Shown here piece by piece: positions 4,203-64,000 of a DNA stretch of 64,000 nt (its first letter is position 1; every line of letters begins with the position of its first letter). The stretch lies in assembly GCF_027579695.1 (NCBI RefSeq), contig NC_083569.1:71107649-71171648 (forward strand). The letters run 5' to 3'. The DNA is from Neoarius graeffei (lineage: Eukaryota; Chordata; Actinopteri; Siluriformes; Ariidae). A model generated the notes under the pieces. The model had not been told where the DNA came from and did not search any database. It was given only the letters and a program-made list of their open reading frames with translations. Made by a program: the position numbers and the translations under genes.

Positions 4203-4455
4203 TGGGATCACTGTGTAAAACAAATTAAAAAAGAATGTGAAGATTTGCAAATCATGGAAACCCTGTATTTCATTGAAAATGGTACAAAAACAACATCAGA
4301 TTTTGAAACTGAGAAATTATATTGTTTTTTGAAAAATATGAGCTCATTTTGAATTTGATGTCAGCAACACATTTCAGAAGAGTTGGGACAGGGGCAACAA
4401 AAGACTGAATGCTAAAAAAAAAACTAATCAGGTCAATTGGCAACAGGTCAGTAAC

Positions 4456-5490
4456 ATGACTGGGTATGAAAAGAGCATCCCAGAGAGGCGGAGTCTCTCA
4501 GAAGTAAAGATGGGGAGGGGTTCACTGCTCTGTGAAAGACTGCATGGGCAAACAGTGCGACAATTTAAGAATAACGTTCCTCAATGTAAAATTGCAAAGA
4601 ATTTGGGGACCACATCATCTATGGTACATAATATCATTAAAAGATTCAGAGAATCTAGAGAAATCTCTGTATGCAAGAGACAAGGCTGAAAACTGACATT
4701 GGATGCCTGGCGACACTGCATGAAAAGCAGACACGTGTCTGTAGTGGAAATCACTGTATGGGCTCAGGAACACTTCAGAAAAACATTGTCTGTGAAAACA
4801 GTTCATTACTGCATCCACAAATGCAAGTTAAAACCGGATATAAACAATATCTAGCAACACTGCCACCTTCTCTGGGCCTGAGCTCTTTTACGATGGACTG
4901 AGGCGAAGTGGAAAATTGTTCTGAGGTCTGACAAATCAAAAGTAGAAATTCTTTTTAGAAATCATGGACACCATGTCCTCCAGGCTAAAGAGGAGAGGGA
5001 CCATCCAGGTTGTTATCAGTGCACAGTTCAAAAGCCAACATCAGTGATGGTATGACGGTGCATTAGTGCACATGACATGGGTAGCTTGCACATCTGGGAA
5101 GGCATCATTAATGCTGAATGGTATATACATGTTTTGGAGCAACATGCTGCCATCCAGACATGAGCTTTTTCAGGGAAGGCCTTCCTTCTTTCAGCAAGAC
5201 AATGCCAAACCGCTTTCTGCACATATTAAAACTGCATGGCTACGTAGTAAAAGAGTCTGGGTGCTAAACTGGCCTGCCTGCAGTCCAGACCTGTCTCCCA
5301 CTGAAAACATTTGGCACGTTATGAAGCGCAAAATACGACAAAGGAGACCCTGAACTGTTGAGCAACTGAGATTGTATATCAGGCAAGAATGGGACAACAT
5401 TTCTCTTTCAAAGCTACAGCAACTGGTCTCCTCAGTTCCCAAACGTTTCCAGGATGTTTTTAAAAGTAGAGGTGATGCAACACAGTGGTA
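4456..5490 (+). pseudogene. Tc1 family B transposase, decayed
   Basis: The frame opens MTGYEKSIPERRSLSEVKMG, the same N-terminus as the intact family E protein, and reads through the first helix-turn-helix. It then meets TGA at 4687-4689 within the linker. Later parts remain legible in shifting frames: [55 protein letters not shown]. The second catalytic Asp (QQDNAK) and the Glu (PTENIW) are kept, but TGA at 5351-5353 and earlier changes destroy the protein. It cannot encode a working transposase. Confidence 0.85.
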
Positions 5491-6032
5491 AACATGCCCC
5501 ATCCCAACTTTTTTTGAAACATTTTGCTGACATCAAATTCAAAATGAGCATATATTTGTCAAAAAACAATACAATTTCTTAGTTTCAACATTTTATATGT
5601 TGTCTTTGTCCTATTTTCAATGAAATATAGGGTTTCCATGATTTGCAAATTATCACATTCTGTTTTTATTTACAGTTTACACAGCGTCCCAACGTTTTTG
5701 GAATTGGGGTTGTACATTAATATAGCTTACTGCACCATGTTTGGTTTGTTTTAAATCCTGTAGGCTTTCTACAGGTATTACTATAAATATGTCATATAAG
5801 CACAAGGTGGTTGGACTGTGAGTCACTTCTTGCTGTGTGCGTCAGTGGGTTGGAGGGGCCCAGGAGGCTTTCATGCCCAGCGGTCCCTGATTTCATAATC
5901 TATCCATGCTTGGACTCCTGACCATGGATGGCTGTAGCATCTTTGGGATTCAAACTTGTGATCTCCCAAAGATAGAGCAAACGATTTTCTCAGGAGCCTT
6001 ATAAGTGGGTTTTGTCTGTGGTGCTTGCACAT

Positions 6033-10442: not shown

Positions 10443-11332
10443 TAGCCTGGCAAGCCAGACTAAATGTGAATATTTAGTCTGGCCTCGATCTGTAGACATT
10501 TCCGACGGGTGTGGGAGGAACAAACCGCTGTCTTTCAAACTGTCTCTGTGCGTATAGGCCAACGCTCTGACCAATCAGCGCAACAGTGACTGTGACGTAG
10601 TCAGAACGACAGAAAGCAGTGGGGGAGGCCTTGAAATAAATAATTTTTCAAAATGCGTATTAATTAATAAACAGGTTCTAGATATTAAGAAGTTTGGAGA
10701 TAATGACCACAAGTTTGGAGTCTGTACCACATAACTCTTATTTTTTTTTTCAAGTGTTTTTCAAGGGTTTGCTTAAACTGTTTTTGAGAGTTTTTATTTA
10801 GTGGTGTTTGGTGAAATAATTTCCCTTAAATTTAAAATAACGGGAAAATAAGAAACAATCAAAAAGTAATGTTTCAAAGCTGTTCATTAATTCTTCGTAC
10901 TGCACAAACTAGCCCCATCCTTTTGGCTACGAGCGGAGCCAGCTGGTAGATCAGACTTTTGCCATAGCTGGTCGGCAAAACAGCGAAAACGTCCTTCTTG
11001 AAAAGGAATGAGCGGAGAGCCTCTTCCTGCTCATGTTCCAACGAAAACTCCAAGTCTAATTCTTCTAAAACTGATTCCAAAGCGGAGTCAAACGCGCGCT
11101 GTTCACTAGTCGTAGCCATCTTTCCTGCTGTGCTTTCTCCAGCGTCGCGCAGCTTTGTCGTCACTCCTGCAAAAGCCCGCCCAAAGAATCCAAACAAAAA
11201 CCTTGCGTTGTGATTGGCGGGCACGATTTGATGCCCGGGGTGTTTTTGTTGATATGGTGCGAGGCTAGACCCACTCGTAGGCAAAAATATTTTTGGCCGC
11301 TAGGCGGGTGGGTCTAGTTTACTAGGCTATAG
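10441..11332. mobile_element. Probable non-autonomous DNA element carrying a helicase fragment
   Basis: The left end ACTAGCCTGGCAAGCCAGAC and right end (reverse complement ATAGCCTAGTAAACTAGACC) are imperfect inverted repeats. Both flanks have GATAGACA. An internal palindrome AGACTAAAT...ATTTAGTCT lies near the left end. The element contains a short minus-strand coding remnant (next entry). The class is not determined. Confidence 0.55.
10874..11119 (-). pseudogene. RecQ-like helicase N-terminal fragment
   Basis: From ATG at 11119 (minus) the frame reads MATTSEQRAFDSALESVLEE and later LFKKDVFAVLPTSYGKSLIY, QLAPLVAKRMG. This resembles the start of superfamily 2 RecQ-type helicases, where the phosphate-binding loop is PTGxGKS. 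Here the key Gly is Ser (PTSYGKS), so ATP binding is doubtful. The frame ends after about 80 residues with no helicase motifs II-VI. It is best read as a captured or decayed exon within the mobile element. An upstream in-frame ATG at 11284 exists but lies in the element's non-coding end. Confidence 0.55.
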
Positions 11333-16002: not shown

Positions 16003-16511
16003 CAATGTTCAGCTTTGAATAAAAATTCTATTGACTTGATATGAAAAGATTCAGTTGTTCATTTACATTGCCTGCTGAGGTTTTAATAAATTATTGACCA
16101 AACGATTTAAAAGGAGCCTACCACGACTATGAAGTTACACTTCAAATTTGTCATCTGCATTTCACCCTAATATGGAGAATGTGGTAAGTATGTCAGCCAG
16201 GAGACTGACTAAATATGACACATGACATCCACACTGTGCATGTTTTACAGTAAAATACCAGTGTATTATGTTTTTCACAACAATAAAAAGGGTACACAGT
16301 GTGTACTACACACTTTATCAGCACAAAATATTGTATGTCTGGTAAATGAACAAGGTCCACAGACCTACGTTGTGTGCAGACCCTCCTAAAAGCAAACCAG
16401 TTTCCCACCGACGAACCGACCGATGGGTCGACACGCGACTAAAAATTTCACCATCCCCCCGGTTTGATTTTACAACTCAACCACTGTAACCACTACACCA
16501 CCGTGCCACCT

Positions 16512-17150
16512 ATATTCCATTCACTTAGCATGATACTGAACGAGTTGAAGATACTGTAAGTAGCTGAATAGAATATAGCTGATATACCACAAAAAAAGCC
16601 AGCCAATATTATTATTATTATTATACATTCCTTTCGGGTGTTCAATGCATCTTTCTCTTTCAAAATTCTCTCAAAATTTTCTGTATTTAACAAAGCAAAC
16701 CTGGCGGCCATGTTTGTTTACAAATTGTCACAGTCGCTCGCTAGCACAGAAGTTTTACCTGTCCATGTCTCTCTTCTAGTTTTTCAATGTCTGTTGGTAT
16801 GTTTTTCTCTTGTAAATATGCGTGAAGAACATATAATGAAGTTTTGGTAGCCTTTTGAGTGTTCAGCACATCTTTCTTTTTCCCGGGGAACAAAGAAATG
16901 CTTCCACGCATGCGCAGCAGAAAAATTTCTCATTGGATATTCGCATCAGTTCCGACATGTGACGTCATGTTGTCTTGACAATCATGCAATATGGTAAACC
17001 ATATTCAACACTCATTCTCCATTAGGCAGAGTGATGTAATACATGTAGAATAAGCAATATGATAACAATATTGCATGCTATCAGACTAAATGAATGAAAC
17101 CCGCTAGAAGGGAATAGAACACGTGTTTTTATTCCATCGAAAAAGTGTCC
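16512..17150. repeat. Hairpin-bearing repeat, unit 1
   Basis: It begins with an imperfect hairpin (TATATTCCATTCACTTAGCA ... AGCTGAATAGAATATA, 16512-16580). A body follows (16626-17150) that is repeated at about 17560-18160. Body landmarks are CATGTTTGTTTACAAA, GGTATGTTTTTCTCTTGTAA, TGACGTCATGTTGTCTTGAC, ACCCGCTAGAAGGGAA and TGTATGTATAATAATT. No coding potential is seen. Confidence 0.75.
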
Positions 17151-17327
17151 TGTATGTATAATAATTAAATAATATTGGCTGGCATTGAGTGGTATATCAG
17201 ATATATTCCATTCAGCTAGCATAATATTGAACAAGTCAAAGACGAGTTCAATATCATACTAGCTGAATGGAATATATTTGATAGACCACTCAATGCCAGC
17301 CAATATTATTTAATTATTATACATACA
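17151..17327. repeat. Large hairpin (83/82 bp arms, 12 bp loop)
   Basis: The left arm 17151-17233 (TGTATGTATAATAATTAAAT...GAAC) is nearly the inverse of the right arm 17246-17327 (GTTCAATATCATACTAGCTG...ATACATACA). The loop is AAGTCAAAGACG. It sits exactly between the two body copies and resembles the smaller hairpin at 16512. Confidence 0.88.
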
Positions 17328-44461: not shown

Positions 44462-44650
44462 CTCATATCATATTGTGTTTAAGTGTGAAGATTACACCCC
44501 ATCTGTATTGTGACCTCTCTATCATCATGCCATAATGATATCAAATGTTGTAATTTGTGCTACGCTTGATATCATTATGGCATGATGATAGAGGTCACTA
44601 TACAGCTGTAGTGTAATTTTCAGGCTTCCACACAATATGACATGATTATA
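44462..44650. repeat. Hairpin repeat (about 80 bp arms)
   Basis: The inner arms are near-perfect: ACCTCTCTATCATCATGCCA...TGATATCA against TGATATCATTATGGCATGAT...AGAGGTCAC. The loop is about 23 bp (44557-44579). Outer arms (ATCATATTGTGT ... ACACAATATGACATGAT) also pair. It looks like a foldback MITE; no coding. Confidence 0.8.
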
Positions 44651-45050: not shown

Positions 45051-46617
45051 CTAGTGCTCAATGAACTGTCCATGCTTTTCCTCCCCATTTTATATCATCC
45101 AAGTATGACAGAGAAAAAAAAAGATCAAGGATTTTGCTGCCCACAAAGTCCTGCCACCCTGTGTGCATACATGCAAATCTGCCTGCCTCACAGGATAGCT
45201 TGTATCACTACATTTCATGTGGATGGCTAAAGATAGCATACCAGCAGATACACATCGCATCCATGATGGTGAAATAACTCCCATCTAACAATCTATCCGC
45301 CCTTTCATTACTGCTGGATGTGATAGCTAAATACACTCCATTGCACATGGGCCACATGTGAAGATATGAAACCACATTACCACATTATAGGACACACCAA
45401 GGAAGGGGGAGACGGAAATGGAAAGAAGGAAGGTAATGACATAGGCTAAGACAGAAGGACAGAGAGGGCTCTAGAGATCTCCCTGTAATCTTAGAAGAAC
45501 ACTGATGGAGGTCCTACTGGGTGGAACCTTCAAGAATTGGTTCGCAGCTTGAAAATTCAAGCAAGCGATGAACATGTTTAGTCTAGTGTGCTGAGTCTTA
45601 TTATGGGTTAACTTTAGATGAATGAATTAGCTATATCAAGTGATTAATGCTGTCCTCAAGTGCATGTCTTAAATAATTCCATGATCGAGATCCTTTGATT
45701 CATTCAACATCCAACTTGACACACATTGATTGCAGCTTGACCGTTTTCTACACTGAGTATTTCCCTTCCACTAACCGAATGGAGCAGGTCAGATTTCACA
45801 GCTACCGTAAGCATGGACTCAGCAGTAGGTGGGTTGTCTGCCACTGACTGCATCCAGAAATATCTGCGTTAAAGGCTACCCTCTGAAAGGGCGAGGCAGG
45901 CTGCGTATGTGTATAAATGCCTGATAATTGCATGTGTCTAAAAGCAGTGAACATTGCAAGCTTTGCACTCAACCACAGACTCCAGGCACATGACAGAGAG
46001 GACAGTGTTCTGTCTGTGCAGCTCAAGCTACATTAACTCACCACAGAAACTAAAGTCTGTAGTTACACAGAAGAAAATAGCCTGTCTCAGGTTAGACTTG
46101 GGGCATAGATTTGTGGAAAAATATGAAGTATGCAGCCAGGGACATGAATAGCAAGTGGTTTATGTTTTTAGGAATCTGTGTGAGAGCAAGGAAGTCTTCT
46201 TTTCACATTATTATGATGAGTTGCATACTGTAGAGCAAAACAATACTGATTTCTTCACATATTAGCAGTAATGTGGTTATTCATGTATTGTATATAAAAG
46301 CTGACGTGGCAAAATAGTACTGTAGTAAAGCGAGAATGCCATGAAAATTATTTTAAAAATACAATGTAAGGTAAAATACAGGATTAATGAAGGGAAGTAA
46401 AAATGAAAGGAAGTGCTAATCCTAGTAATGGTGATTTGAAGTAGCCTAGGTGGTCCGGATAAGGGTAAAAATTGAGACAAGAAGGAACAGACTCTCACTT
46501 CATGAACTAAGCAAACTTAATATTGTGGGCCTTGTCATATAGTGACACCAAGTGGACACTGGGGAAATGGGACCTTTGTCAACTGGTAGAGTTCTTGGTA
46601 CTCTGAGTATCAGATAT
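45051..46617. other. No gene seen
   Basis: Single-copy in the window, with no frame above 75 codons and no repeat recognised. Confidence 0.5.
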
Positions 46618-46619
46618 TA

Positions 46620-48184
46620 CAACCCCGATTCCAAAAAAGTTGGGACAAAGTACAAATTGTAAATAAAAACGGAATGCAATGATGTGGAAGTTTCAAAATT
46701 CCATATTTTATTCAGAATAGAACCTAGATGACATATCAAATGTTTAAATTTAATTTCATGACAACAACACGTCTCAAAAAAGTTGGGACAAGGCCATGTT
46801 TACCACTGTGAGACATCCCCTTTTCTCTTTACAACAGTCTGTAAATGTCTGGGGACTGAGGAGACAAGTTGCTCAAGTTTAGGGATAGGAATGTTAACCC
46901 ATTCTTGTCTAATGGAGGATTCTAGTTGCTCAACTGTCTTAGGTCTTTTTTGTCGTATCTTCCGTTTTATGATGTGCCAAATGTTTTCTATGGGTGAAAG
47001 ATCTGGACTGCAGGCTGGCCAGTTCAGTACCCGGACCCTTCTTCTATGCAGCCATGATGCTGTAATTGATGCAGTATGTGGTTTGGCATTGTCATGTTGG
47101 AAAATGCAAGGTCTTCCCTGAAAGAGACGTCGTCTGGATGGGAGCATATGTTGCTCTAGAACCTGGATATACCTTTCAGCATTGATGGTGTCTTTCCAGA
47201 TGTGTAAGCTGCCCATGCCACACGCACTAATGCAACCCCATACCATCAGAGATGCAGGCTTCTGAACTGAGTGCTGATAACAACTTGGGTCGTCCTTCTC
47301 CTCTTTAGTCCGAATGACACGGCGTCCCTGATTTCCATAAAGAACTTCAAATTTTGATTCGTCTGACAACAGAACAGTTTTCCACTTTGCTACAGTCCAT
47401 TTTAAATGAGCCTTGGCCCAGAGAAGACGTCTGCGCTTCTGGATCATGTTTAGATACGGCTTCTTCTTTGAACTATAGAGTTTTAGCTGGCAACGGCGGA
47501 TGGCACGGTGAATTGTGTTCACAGATAATGTTCTCTGGAAATATTCCTGAGCCCATTTTGTGATTTCCAATACAGAAGCATGCCTGTATGTGATGCAGTG
47601 CCGTCTAAGGGCCCGAAGATCACGGGCACCCAGTATGGTTTTCCGGCCTTGACTCTTACGCACAGAGATTCTTCCAGATTCTCTGAATCTTTTGATGACA
47701 TTATGCACTGTAGATGATGATATGTTCAAACTCTTTGCAATTTTACACTGTTGAACTCCTTTCTGATATTGCTCCACTATTTGTTGGCACAGAATTAGGG
47801 GGATTGGTGATCCTCTTCCCATCTTTACTTCTGAGAGCCGCTGCCACTCCAAGATGCTCTTTTTATACCCAGTCATGTTAATGACCTATTGCCAATTGAC
47901 CTAATGAGTTGCAATTTGGTCCTCCAGCTGTTCCTTTTTTGTACCTTTAACTTTTCCAGCCTCTTATTGCCCCTGTCCCAACTTTTTTGAGATGTGTTGC
48001 TGTCATGAAATTTCAAATGAGCCAATATTTGGCATGAAATTTCAAAATGTCTCACTTTCGACATTTGATATGTTGTCTATGTTCTATTGTGAATACAATA
48101 TCAGTTTTTGAGATTTGTAAATTATTGCATTCCGTTTTTATTTACAATTTGTACTTTGTCCCAACTTTTTTGGAATTGGGGTTG
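46620..48184 (-). mobile_element. Tc1/mariner family E, copy 1, intact
   Basis: 1565 bp between TA (46618-46619) and TA (48185-48186). Ends CAACCCCGATTCCAAAAAAG and inverse ...TTTTTTGGAATTGGGGTTG. Inverted repeats reach about 170 bp. A second copy lies at 60776-62378. Confidence 0.96.
46800..47876 (-). CDS. Tc1/mariner transposase, family E, intact 358 residues
   Basis: The protein begins [20 protein letters not shown], a start shared with families B and E elsewhere in the window. Residues 25-75 hold the first helix-turn-helix ([20 protein letters not shown]). The linker is GRKTIL, not GRPR. Residues 85-135 hold the second helix-turn-helix. Catalytic residues are D172 (VLLSDESK), D262 ([10 protein letters not shown]) and E297 (LSPIENIW), again with 34 residues between D262 and E297. 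A Trp found before SDE in copy 2 is Leu here (VLL versus VLW), which might matter. It ends KRKGDVSQW and TAA. The element would cut and paste itself at TA; whether this copy is active is unknown. Confidence 0.94.
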   Translation of the reverse strand: MTGYKKSILEWQRLSEVKMGRGSPIPLILCQQIVEQYQKGVQQCKIAKSLNISSSTVHNVIKRFRESGRISVRKSQGRKTILGARDLRALRRHCITYRHASVLEITKWAQEYFQRTLSVNTIHRAIRRCQLKLYSSKKKPYLNMIQKRRRLLWAKAHLKWTVAKWKTVLLSDESKFEVLYGNQGRRVIRTKEEKDDPSCYQHSVQKPASLMVWGCISACGMGSLHIWKDTINAERYIQVLEQHMLPSRRRLFQGRPCIFQHDNAKPHTASITASWLHRRRVRVLNWPACSPDLSPIENIWHIIKRKIRQKRPKTVEQLESSIRQEWVNIPIPKLEQLVSSVPRHLQTVVKRKGDVSQW

Positions 48185-48189
48185 TAGAT

Positions 48190-50055: not shown

Positions 50056-50279
50056 TACAACCCCAATTCCAAAAACGTTGGGACGCTGTGTAAACTGTAA
50101 ATAAAAACAGAATACGATAATTTGCAAATCATGGAAACCCTATATTTCATTGAAAATAGTACAAAGGCAACAGATCAAATGTTGAAACTGAGAAATTTTA
50201 TTGTTTTTTGACAAATATATGCTCATTTTGAATTTGATGTCAGCAAGATGTTTCAAAAAAAGTTGGGATGGGGCATGTT

Positions 50280-51680
50280 TACCACTGTGTTGCATCACCT
50301 CTACTTTTAGCAACACTCTGTAAACATTTGGGAACTGAAGAGACTAATTGTTGTAGTTTTGAAAGAGAAATGTTGTCCCATTCTTGCCTGAAATACAATT
50401 TCAATTGCGCAACAGTTCGGGGTCTCCTTTGTCGTATTTTGTGCTTCATAATGCGCCACTTGTTTTAAATGGAAGACAGGTCTGGACTGCAGGCAGACCA
50501 GTTTAGCACCCAGACTCTTTTATTATGGAACCATGCAGTTTTAATATGTGCAGAAAGTGGTTTGGTATTGTCTTGCTGAAAGAAGGAAGGCCTTCCCTGA
50601 AAAAGGTTTTGTCTGGATGGCAGCATGTTGCTCTGAAACGTGTATATATCATTCAGCATTAATGATGCCTTCCCAGATGTGCAAGCTACCCATATCACTA
50701 ATGCACCCTCATACCATCACTGATGTTGGCTTTTAAACTGTGCACTGATCACAGGCTGGATGGTCCCTCTCCTCTTTAGCCTGGAGGACGTGGTGTTCAT
50801 GATTTCTAAAAAGAATTTCTACTTTTGATTCATCAGACCTCAGGACAATTTTCCACTTCACCTCAGTCCATCATGAAAGAGCTCAGGCCCAGAGAAGGTG
50901 GCGGTGTTTCTGGATATTGTTTGTATCTGGGTTTAACTTGCATTTGTGGATGCAGTAATGAACTGTTTTCACAGACGATGGTTTTCTGAAGTGTTCCTGA
51001 GCCCATACAGTGATTTCCACTACAGACACATGTCTGCTTTTAACACAGTGTCTCCTGAGGACCTGAAGATCACAGGCATCCAATGTCAGTTTTCAGCCTT
51101 GTCTCTTGCATACAGAGATTTCTCCAGATTCTCTGAATCTTTTAATGATATTATGTACCATAGATGATATGATCCCCAAATTCTTTGCAATTTTACATTG
51201 AGGAATGTTATTCTTAAATTGTTGCACTGTTTGCCCATGCAGTCTTTCACAGAGCGGTGAACCTCTCCCCATCTTTACTCCGCAGGGGTGATAGCGTTCC
51301 GGCGCCGCGCCGGATTTCCGGCGTACCGTGGCTGGGGAAAAAAAAAAATCTAGTTCGCCCATTGTCCTGTGTCATTCTGAGATGCGCAGATAGACAGTAA
51401 AGGGAATTCGCATGATATGGAACTAGTGGGAAAAAAGTGCCATCACGGCACGAATTAGACCCTCGTGCCGTGACGGCACTTTTTTCCCACTAGTTCCATA
51501 TCATGCGAATTCCCTTTACTGTCTATCTGCGCATCTCAGAATGACACAGGACAATGGGCGAACTAGATTTTTTTTTTTCCCCAGCCACGGTACGCCGGAA
51601 ATCCGGCGCAGCGCCGGAACGCTATCACCCCTGCTTCTGAGAGACTCCGCCTCTCTGGGATGCTCTTTTCATACCCAATC
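50280..51680 (-). pseudogene. Tc1 family B transposase, copy 2, decayed
   Basis: Fragments in minus sense are [40 protein letters not shown]-like linker, SGKASLMLNDIYTFQSNML, FFQQDNTKPLSAHIKTAWFH and WSACSPDLSSI. The palindrome cuts the N-terminal coding region just before the VKMGRG segment, and several stops follow (for example at the end of SVCKRQG). No working product is possible. Confidence 0.82.
51282..51634. mobile_element. Foldback element: 172 bp arms, 9 bp loop
   Basis: The left arm 51282-51453 starts GCAGGGGTGATAGCGTTCCG; the right arm 51463-51634 is its reverse complement with only two differences that I see (near 51308 and at 51442). The loop is ATTAGACCC. Both arms contain an 11-base A/T run of identical length. 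Flanking TCC/TTC may be a 3 bp target duplication. GC-rich tips (CCGGCGCCGCGCCGG) enclose an AT-richer centre. No coding. Confidence 0.93.
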
Positions 51681-52269
51681 ATATTACTGACCTGTTGCTA
51701 ATTAACCAAATTATTTTTGCTTTTTTTGTTTTTTTTTTAGCATTACACAACTTTTTTAGTCTTTTGTTGCCCTGTCCCAACTTTTCTGAAACGTGTTGCT
51801 GACATCAAATTCAAAATGAGCATATATTAAAAAAACAAACAAAAAAATAATAAAATTTCTCAGTTTCAACATTTGATATGTTGTATTTGTATTCTTTTCA
51901 ATGAAATATAGGGTTCCCATGATTTGCAAATCTTCACATTCTGTTTTTATTTATGTTTTACACGGTGTCCCAACTTTTTTGGCATTGGGATTGTACAATG
52001 TCATCATGCTTATTATCTCATAGAGTACTAATTAACTGAGCTGAATCTAACTTTACTCTAACTTGTATAGCCACACTGTATTCTGGAGTTTTGAGTCTAA
52101 TACTTTTACACTGGATTTCTCATCATTACTATGCCATTGAGTCACTGGAATATTATGAATGAGAAAAGAAGTGTGTACTCTTCTGTTTTTTGGAACTAAC
52201 AGCAAAACCTGAATGTTATCATTTAAGATTGAGATCTTTGAAATGTTTCCTCTGTTATACGTATGCTGG

Positions 52270-60400: not shown

Positions 60401-63400
60401 TTACATTCTTCATCCAAAGGTGAAGTAACGTTGCGCTCAGGTGACAATTCCATATTTCAATGCAAAATCGCTCGCTGCTAAACTTGGTCTACACAGGCTG
60501 TGCACTGAAACCGTGCAAGCTTTCTCAGCCTGCTGGTGCTTTCGCAGGTGACGTCACGAATCTGGCTCCAGACTCCCTTGGGATTTTTCCAGACACGTTT
60601 TATTTTATTTTTTTATTTTATTTTTTTATTTTTTTCAAAATTGGTCCAGAATATGCACTTTAAATGGTATGTTTTGATATCAAAACTTTTTTTAACACAC
60701 CATTTTGGAATCGATAAGAATTGGAGTTGATAAAATCCAACCAATACCCAACCCTACTCAGTAACCTTTAATTTACAACCCCGATTCCAAAAAAGTTGGG
60801 ACAAAGTACAAATTGTCAATAAAAACGGAATGCAATGATGTGGAAGTTTCAAAATTCCATATTTTATTCGGCATAGAAAATAGATGACATCAAATGTTTA
60901 AACTGAGAAAATGTATCATTTAAAGAGAAAAATTAGGTGATTTTAAATTTCATGATAACAACACATCTCAAAAAAGTTGGGACAAGGCCATGTTTCCCAC
61001 TGTGAGACATCCCCTTTTCTCTTTACAACAGTCTGTAAACGTCTGGGGACTGAGGAGACAAGTTGCTCAAGTTTAGGGATAGGAATGTTAACCCATTCTT
61101 GTCTAATGTAGGATTCTAGTTGCTCAACTGTCTTAGGTCTTTTTTGTCGTATCTTCCATTTTATGATGTGCCAAATGTTTTCTATGGGTGAAAGATCTGG
61201 ACTGCAGGCTGGCCAGTTCAGTACCCGGACCCTTCTTCTACGCAGCCATGATGCTGTAATTGATGCAGTATGTGGTTTGGCATTGTCATGTTGGAAAATG
61301 CAAGGTCTTCCCTGAAAGAGACGTCGTCTGGATGGGAGCATATGTTGCTCTAGAACCTGGATATACCTTTCAGCATTGATGGTGTCTTTCCAGATGTGTA
61401 AGCTGCCCATGCCACACGCACTAATGCAACCCCATACCATCAGAGATTCAGGCTTCTGAACTGAGCGCTGATGATAACTTGGGTCGTCTTTCTCCTCTTT
61501 AGTCCGAATGACACGGCGTCCCTGATTTCCATAAACAACTTCAAATTTTGATTCGTCTGACCACAGAACAGTTTTCCACTTTGCCACAGTCCATTTTAAA
61601 TGAGCCTTGGCCCAGAGAAGACGTCTGCGCTTCTGGATCATGTTTAGATACGGCTTCTTCTTTGAACTATAGAGTTTTAGCTGGCAACGGCGGATGGCAC
61701 GGTGAATTGTGTTCACAGATAATGTTCTCTGGAAATATTCCTGAGCCCATTTTGTGATTTCCAATACAGAAGCATGCCTGTATGTGATGCAGTGCCGTCT
61801 AAGGGCCCGAAGATCACGGGCACCCAGTATGGTTTTCCGGCCTTGACCCTTACGCGCAGAGATTCTTCCAGATTCTCTGAATCTTTTGATGATATTATGC
61901 ACTGTAGATGATGATATGTTCAAACTCTTTGCAAATTTACACTGTCGAACTCCTTTCTGATATTGCTCCACTATTTGTCGGTGCAGAATTAGGGGGATTG
62001 GTGATCCTCTTCCCATCTTTACTTCTGAGAGCCGCTGCCACTCCAAGATGCTCTTTTTATACCCAGTCATGTTAATGACCTATTGCCAATTGACCTAATG
62101 AGTTGCAATTTGGTCCTCCAGCTGTTCCTTTTTTGTACCTTTAACTTTTCCAGCCTCTTATTGCCCCTGTCCCAACTTTTTTGAGATGTGCTGCTGTCAT
62201 GAAATTTCAAATGAGCCAATATTTGGCATGAAATTTCAAAATGTCTCACTTTCGACATTTGATATGTTGTCTATGTTCTATTGTGAATACAATGTCAGTT
62301 TTTGAGATTTGTAAATTATTGCATTCCGTTTTTATTTACAATTTGTACTTTGTCCCAACTTTTTTGGAATCGGGGTTGTACACCCTCTGACTGTTGACTC
62401 CTTCCATAAATGTTAAATAAATGCTTCCTTACAGATAGTTTCACCATATCAATGCTTGCTTATTTTTGTTTGGTAGCTCACCCATTTTTAAAACTTTTTT
62501 TATTTTATTTTTTAATTTACTTATTATTAGTCATAGATTATGTGGAGCATCTGCCATACAAGCCCTTGTGAATTCGCTGTCAGAGAGCCATGCTGTTTTA
62601 CAAAATGAACCGGCACTTTATGACCAGTCAGATTCAAGAATGAATAAATTTAATGAAATTGGGTATAAAGATTGTGGCGCAAGGGAGCAGTTAGTCTAAT
62701 GGGACTGTAGTAAGATTAGAAGAAGCCTTTTATTTTTGTCACATGTACACTCAAGCACGGTGAAATTCCTCCTCTGCATTTAACCCATCTGAAGCAGTGA
62801 ACACACACATGCACGAACAAGTGAGCAATGAGCGCGCGCACACACCCAGAGCAGTGGGCAGCTATGCTACGGCACCCAGGGAGCAGTTGGGGGTTAGGTG
62901 CCTTGCTCAAGGACGTTTTAGCCATAATACAGAGGGAGAGAAAAGTGTTTTGCTCACTCAACTCACCTCACACTTTTCCTGCCGGTCCCAGGAATTGACC
63001 CGGTGACCTTTTGGGCCCAAGCAGGGCTAGGTTCAAAAGATCGATCCACGATCCAATATCGATTCACGTTCAGAAAATACGAGATCGATTCAAAAATGTG
63101 TGGATCGATCTCTTCCAGGTGGCTATAGGCACTATTTTCTCGACTGCGCAAGGGCCGCTATAAAAAGCGGGTGCCGGCAAACGAAACCGAAACTTAAGAA
63201 CGCGAGATGGCTGAAGCTGCACAGCTAAAATCACTGCCTGGCCTGAAAGCTGATATATGGCATTCCTTTGGATTCAAACGTTACGAGGACCGAGACGAAC
63301 TCGACAGAACAAAAGCAGTGTGCAAACTGCCACATAAAGGTAAAATATAGTGGCAATACAACCAATCTCCGCAACCACGCTGACACGGTTTCGGCTAAAC

Positions 63401-64000
63401 CTGCGGCGAATCAAACTGCACTGGAGAAGGCATTTGGTGTTAAATTACATGCACAAACACGCATGGGGCTGTTCCTGTCAATGCGGACAGTTTTTACTTT
63501 AAAGTGACAATCCAGCAATATCTAAGTAGATCGATATCGAATCGGATTGTGACCTTATGAATCGAATCAATCCAGGAAATCTGGATTGATTCCCAGCCCT
63601 AGGCCCAAGAATGCTTCTCTAACCTTCAGCCCATGGCTGCCCCCAGTAGATTGCTAGTCGGTGGGTGTTTTTAAAAACATGGACTATAACATTTTGGGAA
63701 AACGTTAATACATGACCGGTTATTAGGATGCTCCTCCATACAGAAAGGGTTATGCAGGTGCTGTGTTGATTTGTAGGTTTTTACTGAAATCCTGTTACTA
63801 CTTTGGCAAATTAAAATTATGCTGAGTATTTTGTGTCTCTGTACCTTGCTGGGGATTTTTTTTTTTTTAATTGCTAAGTTGTTTATTTCTTTCTTGTCCA
63901 CAGCCCACACCGGTAATCCTTCTGAAGGAGGGGACGGACACATCCCAGGGTGTCCCTCAGCTTGTCAGTAACATCAATGCCTGCCAGGTGATTGCTGAGG
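55918..64000 (+). CDS. cct7: CCT7, chaperonin TCP-1 subunit eta: exon 1 (55918-55923) and exon 2 (63904-64000), gene continues past window
   Basis: Exon 1 codes only Met-Met (ATG ATG at 55918-55923) and runs directly into a consensus donor GTAAGT. The acceptor is a pyrimidine-rich tract ending TCCACAG at 63903. The joined reading is [12 protein letters not shown]..., then [10 protein letters not shown] and [10 protein letters not shown], which is the known N-terminus of the CCT eta subunit. CCT/TRiC is the cytosolic double-ring ATP-dependent chaperonin that folds actin, tubulin and other clients; eta is one of eight subunits in each ring. Only the first about 34 of roughly 540 residues lie in the window, so no ATPase motif is visible. 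The double Met start, a phase-0 intron after codon 2 and in-frame joining all agree. The intron is about 7.98 kb and full of mobile DNA. Identification is from remembered family sequence, not a search. Confidence 0.93.
56430..57480 (+). repeat. Polypyrimidine (TCTC) minisatellite, about 1.05 kb, in cct7 intron 1
   Basis: Almost pure C/T on the plus strand, built from TCTCTCAATCTGTCTCT-type words. A clear 45 bp higher-order unit (CAATTTGTCTCTCATCTGTC...) repeats three times at 56454, 56499 and 56544. It ends in a pure (TC)n of about 22 units at 57425-57467. Long open frames through it are by-products of stop-free CT repeats. Confidence 0.93.
57500..58250. other. Intron sequence, no element recognised
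   Basis: Short (TG)n at 57819-57834. No frame with features. Confidence 0.45.
58254..58549. mobile_element. TIR element with TATCCCCCGCTGGC ends, copy 2
   Basis: Ends TATCCCCCGCTGGC (58254) and GCCAGCGGGGGATA (to 58549) are a perfect 14 bp inverted repeat. Interior matches the 21937 element in inverse orientation but is about 55 bp longer. Inserted in cct7 intron 1. Confidence 0.85.
58550..59345. other. Intron sequence, no element recognised
   Basis: AT-rich, with T and G homopolymers at 59141-59201. No gene. Confidence 0.45.
59353..59725 (+). mobile_element. SINE-1 copy (full length, plus) in cct7 intron 1
   Basis: Flanked by AACAATTTTGGGG (left from 59343, right from 59726). Near-consensus, B box GGTTCGAGCCC. 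Confidence 0.95.
60030..60659 (+). mobile_element. Kolobok-like element with TTAA target and THAP remnant
   Basis: TTAA flanks both sides (60026-60029 and 60660-60663). The ends AGTGCATAT and ATATGCACT are a perfect 9 bp inverted repeat, with partial pairing further in. ATG at 60364 reads [19 protein letters not shown], the C2CH start of a THAP domain, the DNA-binding module of Kolobok and P-type transposases. The rest of the transposase is missing. 630 bp, in cct7 intron 1. Confidence 0.82.
60776..62378 (-). mobile_element. Tc1/mariner family E, copy 2, in cct7 intron 1
   Basis: 1603 bp between TA (60774-60775) and TA (62379-62380). Same ends as copy 1 (46620) and very similar throughout. 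Copy 2 has about 40 bp more near the left end (from 60902) than copy 1. Confidence 0.96.
60943..62070 (-). CDS. Tc1/mariner transposase, family E copy 2, stop-loss (375 residues)
   Basis: Same start and architecture as the copy at 46800-47876: two helix-turn-helix regions, then D (VLWSDESK), D ([10 protein letters not shown]) and E (LSPIENIW) at the same residue positions 172, 262 and 297. Trp precedes the first catalytic box here, the usual family residue. The stop TAA after GDVSQW has become GAA, so 17 extra residues ([17 protein letters not shown]) are read from the terminal repeat. No internal stop or frameshift is seen. Whether the tail harms function is unknown. It lies antisense within the cct7 intron. 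Confidence 0.92.
   Translation of the reverse strand: MTGYKKSILEWQRLSEVKMGRGSPIPLILHRQIVEQYQKGVRQCKFAKSLNISSSTVHNIIKRFRESGRISARKGQGRKTILGARDLRALRRHCITYRHASVLEITKWAQEYFQRTLSVNTIHRAIRRCQLKLYSSKKKPYLNMIQKRRRLLWAKAHLKWTVAKWKTVLWSDESKFEVVYGNQGRRVIRTKEEKDDPSYHQRSVQKPESLMVWGCISACGMGSLHIWKDTINAERYIQVLEQHMLPSRRRLFQGRPCIFQHDNAKPHTASITASWLRRRRVRVLNWPACSPDLSPIENIWHIIKWKIRQKRPKTVEQLESYIRQEWVNIPIPKLEQLVSSVPRRLQTVVKRKGDVSQWETWPCPNFFEMCCYHEI
62381..62714. other. Intron sequence, no element recognised
   Basis: AT-rich. The 77-codon frame at 62466 is without features. Confidence 0.45.
63022..63601 (+). mobile_element. hAT element with BED zinc finger, 580 bp
   Basis: 8 bp duplication GGCCCAAG (63014-63021 and 63602-63609). 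Ends CAGGGCTAGG and (reverse complement) TAGGGCTGGG. Subterminal GATCGAT-rich words are inverted at both sides. Located in cct7 intron 1, about 300 bases from exon 2. Confidence 0.85.
63207..63510 (+). pseudogene. hAT transposase BED-finger fragment
   Basis: ATG at 63207 opens [20 protein letters not shown] then [21 protein letters not shown] frame change near the CKLPH position moves the rest to another frame: [20 protein letters not shown]. Together this is the CxxC...NLRNH of a BED zinc finger in ZBED1/hAT-Ac type transposases. The catalytic domain is absent. Confidence 0.8.
63904..64000 (+). CDS. cct7: cct7 exon 2 (partial, runs off the window)
   Basis: The frame opens CCC ACA CCG GTA after the AG acceptor and stays open for 97 bases, ending inside a codon after GCT GAG. 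It encodes [30 protein letters not shown] and E. These residues form the N-terminal tail and first helix leading into the equatorial ATP-binding domain of CCT subunits. The next conserved block would fall just outside the window. The branch/pyrimidine tract (63857-63903) is T-rich and AG-free apart from the terminal AG and one AAG. Confidence 0.94.

Follow-up and report, generated by a model that had tools for sequence, protein, structure and literature searches.

A palindromic, hAT6-like mini-transposon of Neoarius graeffei whose long copies were probably broken and rejoined at the centre

Results

A near-perfect palindrome lies within a Tc1-like element

The window, by which we mean the whole stretch of 64,000 nucleotides analysed here (Neoarius graeffei, assembly GCF_027579695.1, contig NC_083569.1, positions 71,107,649 to 71,171,648 of the forward strand), contains a palindrome at 51282-51634 with 172-bp arms, exactly two mismatches between them and a 9-nt spacer, ATTAGACCC. 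The features of the locus and of its relatives in the window are as follows.

4203..5716, minus strand: Tc1 relative without the insert (empty site 1)
46615..48186, plus strand: Tc1 relative (empty site 3)
50056..51995, minus strand: host Tc1-like element, split by the palindrome, with terminal inverted repeats of about 220 bp that are 83% alike
51278..51282: left target-site duplication, damaged, with CTCCG in place of CTTCTG
51283..51633, no strand: palindromic mini-transposon of 351 bp, CAGGGGTGATAG...CTATCACCCCTG, its ends set against 39 other fetched places
51283..51294, plus strand: left terminal inverted repeat, the 12 bp common to both ends of a coding relative, L052
51283..51453, plus strand: left arm, 171 bp, a 99.4% match to the 5' end of L052 (1,526 bp)
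51306 (partner 51610): first arm mismatch, a CpG intact at 51306 and decayed in the right arm
51442 (partner 51474): second arm mismatch, CpG changed to CA at 51442
51454..51464, plus strand: centre scar, ATTAGACCCTC, where the left arm runs on to its inner end at depth 182 and has lost its counterpart
51463..51633, minus strand: right arm, 171 bp, the inverted copy
51622..51633, minus strand: right terminal inverted repeat, from comparison with the ends of L052
51634..51639: right target-site duplication, CTTCTG, identical in the three empty sites
60773..62382, plus strand: Tc1 relative (empty site 2)

The arms, the mismatches and the loop had been described in an earlier sequence-only reading of the window, and they lie far beyond chance. 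DNA folding of the palindrome gave -236.5 kcal/mol against a mean of -51.7 for shuffled sequences (z -48.8; 0 of 100 shuffles equalled it), and the top ungapped palindrome score in the window was 164, when 20 Markov simulations of the same length reached 11-14. The A-run said to match on both sides is indeed 11 A long in each arm. The 353-bp extent given earlier holds for the palindrome but not for the mobile unit: the outermost G...C pair belongs to the flank, as other copies start with CAGGGG and their flanks vary, and the true element is 51283-51633, CAGGGGTG...CACCCCTG. It is plausible that this palindrome extrudes as a cruciform.

The flanks of the palindrome are the two halves of a single Tc1-like element and are collinear along it, and CATCTTTACTTCTGAGAG runs uninterrupted across the insertion site in three other Tc1 copies of the window. 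The frames of these relatives match DDE_3, and two also match HTH_Tnp_Tc3_2, while the interrupted copy has no stop-to-stop frame of at least 100 aa and differs from its nearest relative in the window at 112 of 1,505 aligned sites. With three empty sites and a host that lacks such a frame, the proposal that the palindrome was inserted into a dead Tc1 element stands.

The window holds other inverted repeats and frames. A second, imperfect palindrome at 17151-17327 (177 bp, AT-rich, arms of about 82 bp) does not match the one studied here and has a diverged relative at 16511-16628; a third, short inverted repeat at 44517-44593 has a core of about 28 bp and sits within a longer, diverged one (44486-44617, 80%). 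The frame at 63021-63507 is decayed, matches zf-BED and zf-XS weakly and under the cut-off, and lies just inside CAGGGCTAGG-type sequence; it is possibly another hAT relic with different ends. The frame at 10877-11299 has a sub-threshold DEAD helicase match, and no link between it and the palindrome was seen. No Rfam family reached the gathering score within the window, and scans of phages, plasmids, viral contigs and prokaryotes gave nothing of use; four contigs that had just 19-23 bp in common were taken as chance.

The palindrome belongs to a dispersed family with 6-bp target duplications

A search of the same genome (2.34 Gb, 38 contigs) found the 16-bp terminus 1,343 times as an exact match (665 forward, 678 reverse), a count that pools the two palindrome classes described below with longer elements; the reversed control was found 0 times. 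A search with one arm gave at least 74 matching stretches in 40 scored places, out of 934 first-look candidates. The palindrome is thus a dispersed mobile element, with ends CAGGGG..CCCCTG, and the earlier proviso that it might have no other copies falls away.

We fetched 39 places from the arm search and 20 from the terminus list with their flanks. Together with the window copy these make up the 60 sequences (the window, L013-L051 and L057-L076) from which centres and duplications were read. Both ends are present in 50; the ten without both ends (L017, L027, L034, L042, L043, L044, L071, L072, L073 and L076) were left out of the centre counts, although L027 and L034 do have both arms. As L070, which is half of a short-class copy, was excluded from the long count, 38 long and 11 short copies remain, and 12 more short copies were added to give 23. 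The long sample consists mainly of the best arm matches (40 of the 934 candidates were scored), whereas the short sample holds every 241-267 bp pair found in the first 100 places of the terminus list, which span only C1, C2 and the beginning of C3.

Exact target-site duplications flank 44 of the 50 paired copies, 38 with 6 bp and 6 with 7 bp, and exact agreement over 6-7 bp occurred in only 2 of 2,450 mis-paired flanks. The remaining six copies, among them the window copy, have none that is exact. In the short class, 22 of 23 copies have an exact 6-7 bp duplication, and 11 of these also belong to the set of 50. The 3-bp TTC/TCC duplication suggested earlier therefore does not hold for the family. 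A NuwaI-type (CWG) insertion with a 3-bp duplication was dropped as a candidate because the other copies show 6 bp, as was an 8-bp hAT duplication eroded on its left side.

These copies also bear on whether the locus is real. Fold-back assembly can create long inverted repeats, and the entire window palindrome might on that account be a chimera. We find this scarcely credible, however, and the other genomic copies refute it: the arm recurs across the genome next to exact duplications, both flanks follow one Tc1 element, and the two arms differ from each other at CpGs.

Each arm is the 5' end of a longer, hAT-like element

The 1,526-bp element L052 is flanked by AGTGTAT and opens with the same 171-bp arm followed by ATTAGACCCTC, so that its first 182 bp correspond to the arm and its inner end; past the arm it continues with ATTAGACCCTCGTCATC, and its far end has the 12-bp terminal inverted repeat alone. 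Each palindrome arm is thus a transposon's 5' end, and two copies of it set head to head make up the palindrome. Another class of palindrome, about 257 bp long, is made of 127/128 bp of the same 5' end, again head to head. As arms of two depths occur (182 and 127/128), palindromes formed at least twice. We refer to copies with the deeper arms as the long class and to the others as the short class.

Read away from the arm, L052 contains a transposase-like frame of 194 aa from stop to stop. It matches DUF4371, a domain that goes with hAT transposases, at E 5.3e-5 (23.7 bits), a weak match under the 32.1 cut-off. L077 holds a further element, diverged and about 1.46 kb long, that has its 5' end, 3' end and inner parts in common with L052; its far terminus carries one mismatch and its duplication agrees at 5 of 6 bases. 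A domain search found no zf-BED match in the L077 frame, a PDB search gave no match of note, and no intact autonomous element was found among the copies examined.

Several fetched places join other sequence. L017, a single arm with no partner in its fetched flank, proves to be one end of the coding element L052. Two others, L043 and L044, are likewise single arms without a partner in the fetched flank, and appear to adjoin retrotransposon and BED-finger sequences, a reading of the latter that zf-BED in L053 supports. In two short-class copies, L071 (C1:10281696) and L073 (C1:5245147), the second arm leads on into sequence common to both, as would be expected if the palindrome sat at one end of another repeat or of a larger element.

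At 351 bp, noncoding and dispersed, with terminal inverted repeats and target duplications, the element has the characters of a MITE. It shares with hAT elements a short terminal inverted repeat, the 12-bp CAGGGGTGATAG found at both ends of L052, and the terminus CAGGGGTG is of the CAGGGG type, which we take to be hAT-like. The family does not make the 8-bp duplication of canonical hAT elements (6 bp in 38, 7 bp in 6 and none exact in 6 of the 50 paired copies); its 6-bp duplication is that of the hAT6 kind. Judged by its ends and its duplications, the palindrome fits a nonautonomous hAT6-like element. We argue membership from these two characters because the L052 frame falls below the DUF4371 cut-off and the L077 frame is without zf-BED. 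The sequence-only reading had held that the ends do not clearly fit hAT. We differ, as the ends CAGGGGTG...CACCCCTG and the 6-bp duplications together agree with hAT6, even if the transposase evidence is weak; the lone window copy was misleading because its left duplication is damaged.

The insertion is recent and its arms evolve independently

Both mismatches between the window arms are changes of CpG to CA or TG. The observed to expected ratio of CpG is 1.17 in the palindrome and 0.26 in the host Tc1, and that of TpG+CpA is 0.95 and 1.45, respectively. The insert has therefore hardly aged in surroundings where CpG decays, and the insertion is very recent and younger than its Tc1 host. Across the family, 41 of 2,093 CpG positions in 74 arms had changed, all of them by C>T or G>A, compared with 20 of 8,449 other positions. 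In the 34 two-armed copies, 55 variants are one-sided and 1 is symmetric (L049, position 13); these counts exclude the A-run, inside which lies a second symmetric variant (L027, position 61).

The near identity of the arms had been put down to a very recent origin or to active arm correction. The first part agrees with the intact CpGs. The second would make this an old palindrome whose arms are held identical through arm-to-arm gene conversion, and the symmetric variants in L049 and, within the A-run, L027 are what such conversion would leave. However, with 55 one-sided variants against 1 symmetric, the arms are not corrected against each other, and the CpG and TpG+CpA values of insert and host also speak against great age, so that we consider conversion very improbable. 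One variant, 160A at a CpG, occurs in 8 of 67 arms, the window copy included, and never on both arms of one copy. This suggests that 160A marks a sub-lineage whose palindrome was mobilised in one piece; the alternative is recurrent CpG decay.

Nearly every long copy has a lesion at its centre

Centres were read from one genome assembly. The depth of each arm was measured to the inner end of the reference arm at 182, and a separate comparison with L052 covered the sequence beyond it. Although long-class arms are about 99% alike, the 38 paired long copies have 31 distinct centres, the commonest of which is found in 5 copies and three others in 2 each. Such sharing reflects recurrent microhomology or common descent. 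Relative to the inferred ancestral centre, 37 of the 38 have an insertion or deletion. The exception, L033, is the sole long copy with a full-length centre and carries one substitution, so that the 23-base centre inferred for the ancestor, unchanged and complete on both sides, was found in 0 of 38. In L013 and L018 the central base is all that is missing, and there is no loop.

The form of the junctions resembles end joining. The arms overlap by 1-15 bp in 18 copies, are separated by additional bases in 11, and show neither in 9. Among the 11, L019, L030, L038 and L069 retain the centre and L033 holds it in substituted form, and true insertions therefore number at most six. One long-class copy, L063, has a 110-nt TTC-rich insert at its centre and a 6-bp duplication, and L051 has a more complex centre. 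At least 79 bp of one arm is lost beside the centre in L016, L019, L020, L024, L030, L038, L046 and L069. The central CTC-C-GAG is kept in L029 and, despite large one-sided deletions, in L019, L030, L038 and L069. Its retention indicates that a near-perfect ancestor with a single central base existed. Furthermore, the deletions in L019, L030 and L038 begin a few bases to one side of the centre, and their position beside CTC-C-GAG points to breakage close to where a hairpin loop begins.

The palindrome of the window follows this pattern. Its left arm reaches depth 182 and its right arm 171, with an overlap of 2 formed by TC microhomology with the right arm. The 9-bp loop seen earlier, 51454-51462, is therefore the product of a central deletion of about 11-14 bp.

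The short class differs. Of its 23 copies, 17 have one identical centre of 1 nt, 5 have a small central deletion and 1 has a substitution. Centre indels thus affect 37 of 38 long and 5 of 23 short copies (Fisher 4.3e-10), samples that were drawn differently. Scoring single-base losses as intact leaves 35 of 38 against 4 of 23 (Fisher 3.4e-9), and among long pairs taken from the same terminus list as the short copies, 8 of 8 have an indel (a single base in L013) against 5 of 23 (Fisher 1.6e-4). Against the window arm, the arm matches of 11 short-class copies show 85-99% identity. This class looks older than the long class, and age therefore does not explain its intact centres.

Two other accounts of the varied centres have to be weighed. 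One is that the variation is an artefact of sequencing or assembling long palindromes; a single assembly was used and 37 of 38 long copies are affected. We regard this as unlikely, however, since the assembly of this genome gives 17 of the 23 short palindromes with their 1-nt centre intact, shows L013 and L018 without a loop and L033 with a full, once-substituted centre, and the lesions, including the 110-nt insertion in L063, resemble ordinary end joining. The other account gives every long palindrome a birth of its own, by snap-back or head-to-head joining, from a hAT parent that was not itself palindromic, so that its centre is the birth junction. The centres do vary among copies, and the same 5' end was used at two arm depths, which means at least two formations. 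Yet none of the 38 copies has an arm that continues along L052 for more than 2 bases beyond depth 182, and CTC-C-GAG is retained beside the one-sided deletions of L019, L030, L038 and L069. The arm variants also count against separate births, because a variant present at birth would be symmetric, and 160A, in 8 arms, is never on both arms of one copy. Separate births of the long copies seem to us improbable. Breakage of the palindrome tip, mended by end joining, is the most likely history of almost all the long copies.

Discussion

Our preferred reading, which we consider probable, is that this family is a hAT6-like palindromic MITE and that in its long class the hairpin tip was cut and end-joined, leaving mostly copy-specific centres. 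The ancestral copy, as reconstructed from its descendants, would have been the first 182 bp of a hAT-like element, head to head around one central base. Whole palindromes then spread, presumably through a transposase that was supplied in trans and works on the CAGGGGTGATAG ends. Insertion duplicated 6 bp of target, as the flanks record, and one copy landed recently in the old Tc1-like element of the window. In the long class, a near-loopless palindrome of about 365 bp may extrude a hairpin or cruciform. Its tip would then be cut and rejoined by end joining, and the central deletions, microhomology joins and insertions that we observe would be the outcome. The break may have come with transposition or soon after, and the resulting asymmetric centre probably stabilises the copy thereafter.

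The contrast between the two classes allows a more tentative suggestion, that there is a threshold of arm length between about 128 and 182 bp. Above it, opening of the tip and its closure by end joining would happen roughly once in nearly every new copy, perhaps as it transposes, so that most insertions would be born with their own centre; below it, centres would stay mostly intact. We hold this to be possible rather than probable. If it is true, this family preserves a natural record, spread over the whole genome, of palindromes being broken.

Some of what we describe is familiar, and published systems are taken here from excerpts of the papers cited. Palindromic fish MITEs (Angel; PMC3636048, PMC2579443, PMC12628747) and hAT elements with 6-bp duplications are already known. 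Individual centre scars and a contrast of two arm lengths in one family were not found in the excerpts of the literature searched, a body of work with subscription papers mostly outside it, and we make no claim that they are absent; nor did any of the 15 papers listed there, out of 45 matches, carry the terminus CAGGGGTG. The excerpted account of catfish repeats (PMC5953449) has nothing on palindromic elements. The two classes, together with the elements that share their 5' end, indicate that the same end of a transposon can give rise to a mobile palindrome on more than one occasion.

The Angel elements of zebrafish reportedly go back to Izsvak et al. in 1999. They are nonautonomous, with long inverted repeats that form a stem-loop and 10^3-10^4 copies, and a stem-and-loop model of amplification was built on them (PMC3636048, PMC2579443, PMC12628747). 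Copy-specific centre scars, as found here, are not mentioned for Angel in the excerpts of these accounts (PMC3636048, PMC2579443, PMC12628747). By description, both are nonautonomous elements of fish whose long inverted repeats fold into a stem-loop.

Foldback transposons, too, have long inverted repeats. Galileo and Tetris are of this kind, and Galileo has been placed in the P superfamily (PMC4168063, PMC4079207, in the parts consulted). They resemble the window family in their long inverted repeats; unlike them, almost the whole window element is one palindrome.

Among superfamilies, those hAT families with 5-bp and 6-bp duplications have been named hAT5 and hAT6 (PMC12730594), the latter following Kapitonov and Jurka (2007, cited in PMC12730594), as quoted there in extract. 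The window family shares with hAT6 the 6-bp duplication and a CAGGGG-type end, but it is palindromic. PIF/Harbinger elements make 3-bp duplications, and those of Nuwa are CWG and TNA (excerpts of PMC4482050); both were rejected, as this family makes 6 bp. IS3EU also makes 6-bp duplications, but has ends TAYGG..CCRTA (PMC12730594, same extract), whereas the ends here are CAGGGG..CCCCTG, and it was rejected on that ground. Dada, with 6-7 bp duplications, lacks terminal inverted repeats and targets small-RNA genes (PMC3706591, as excerpted). The window family agrees with it in its 6-bp duplications, but has terminal inverted repeats, and the window copy lies in a Tc1 element; Dada was likewise rejected.

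Finally, the family bears on the stability of palindromes. According to the sections of PMC7999016 consulted, the risk rises with longer and more similar arms and with a short or absent spacer, and in the hairpin of a perfect palindrome four to six central bases are unpaired. The genome studied here carries numerous young insertions of two related, near-perfect palindromes whose chief difference is the length of their arms, which makes the palindrome length at which cells cut, and the repair route that mends the break, testable in natural sequence. In the same sections, work on palindrome stability has drawn largely on repeats introduced into model organisms and on a small number of human palindromes (PMC7999016); in contrast to the inserted repeats and human palindromes of those instability studies, the palindromes described here make up a dispersed mobile family.
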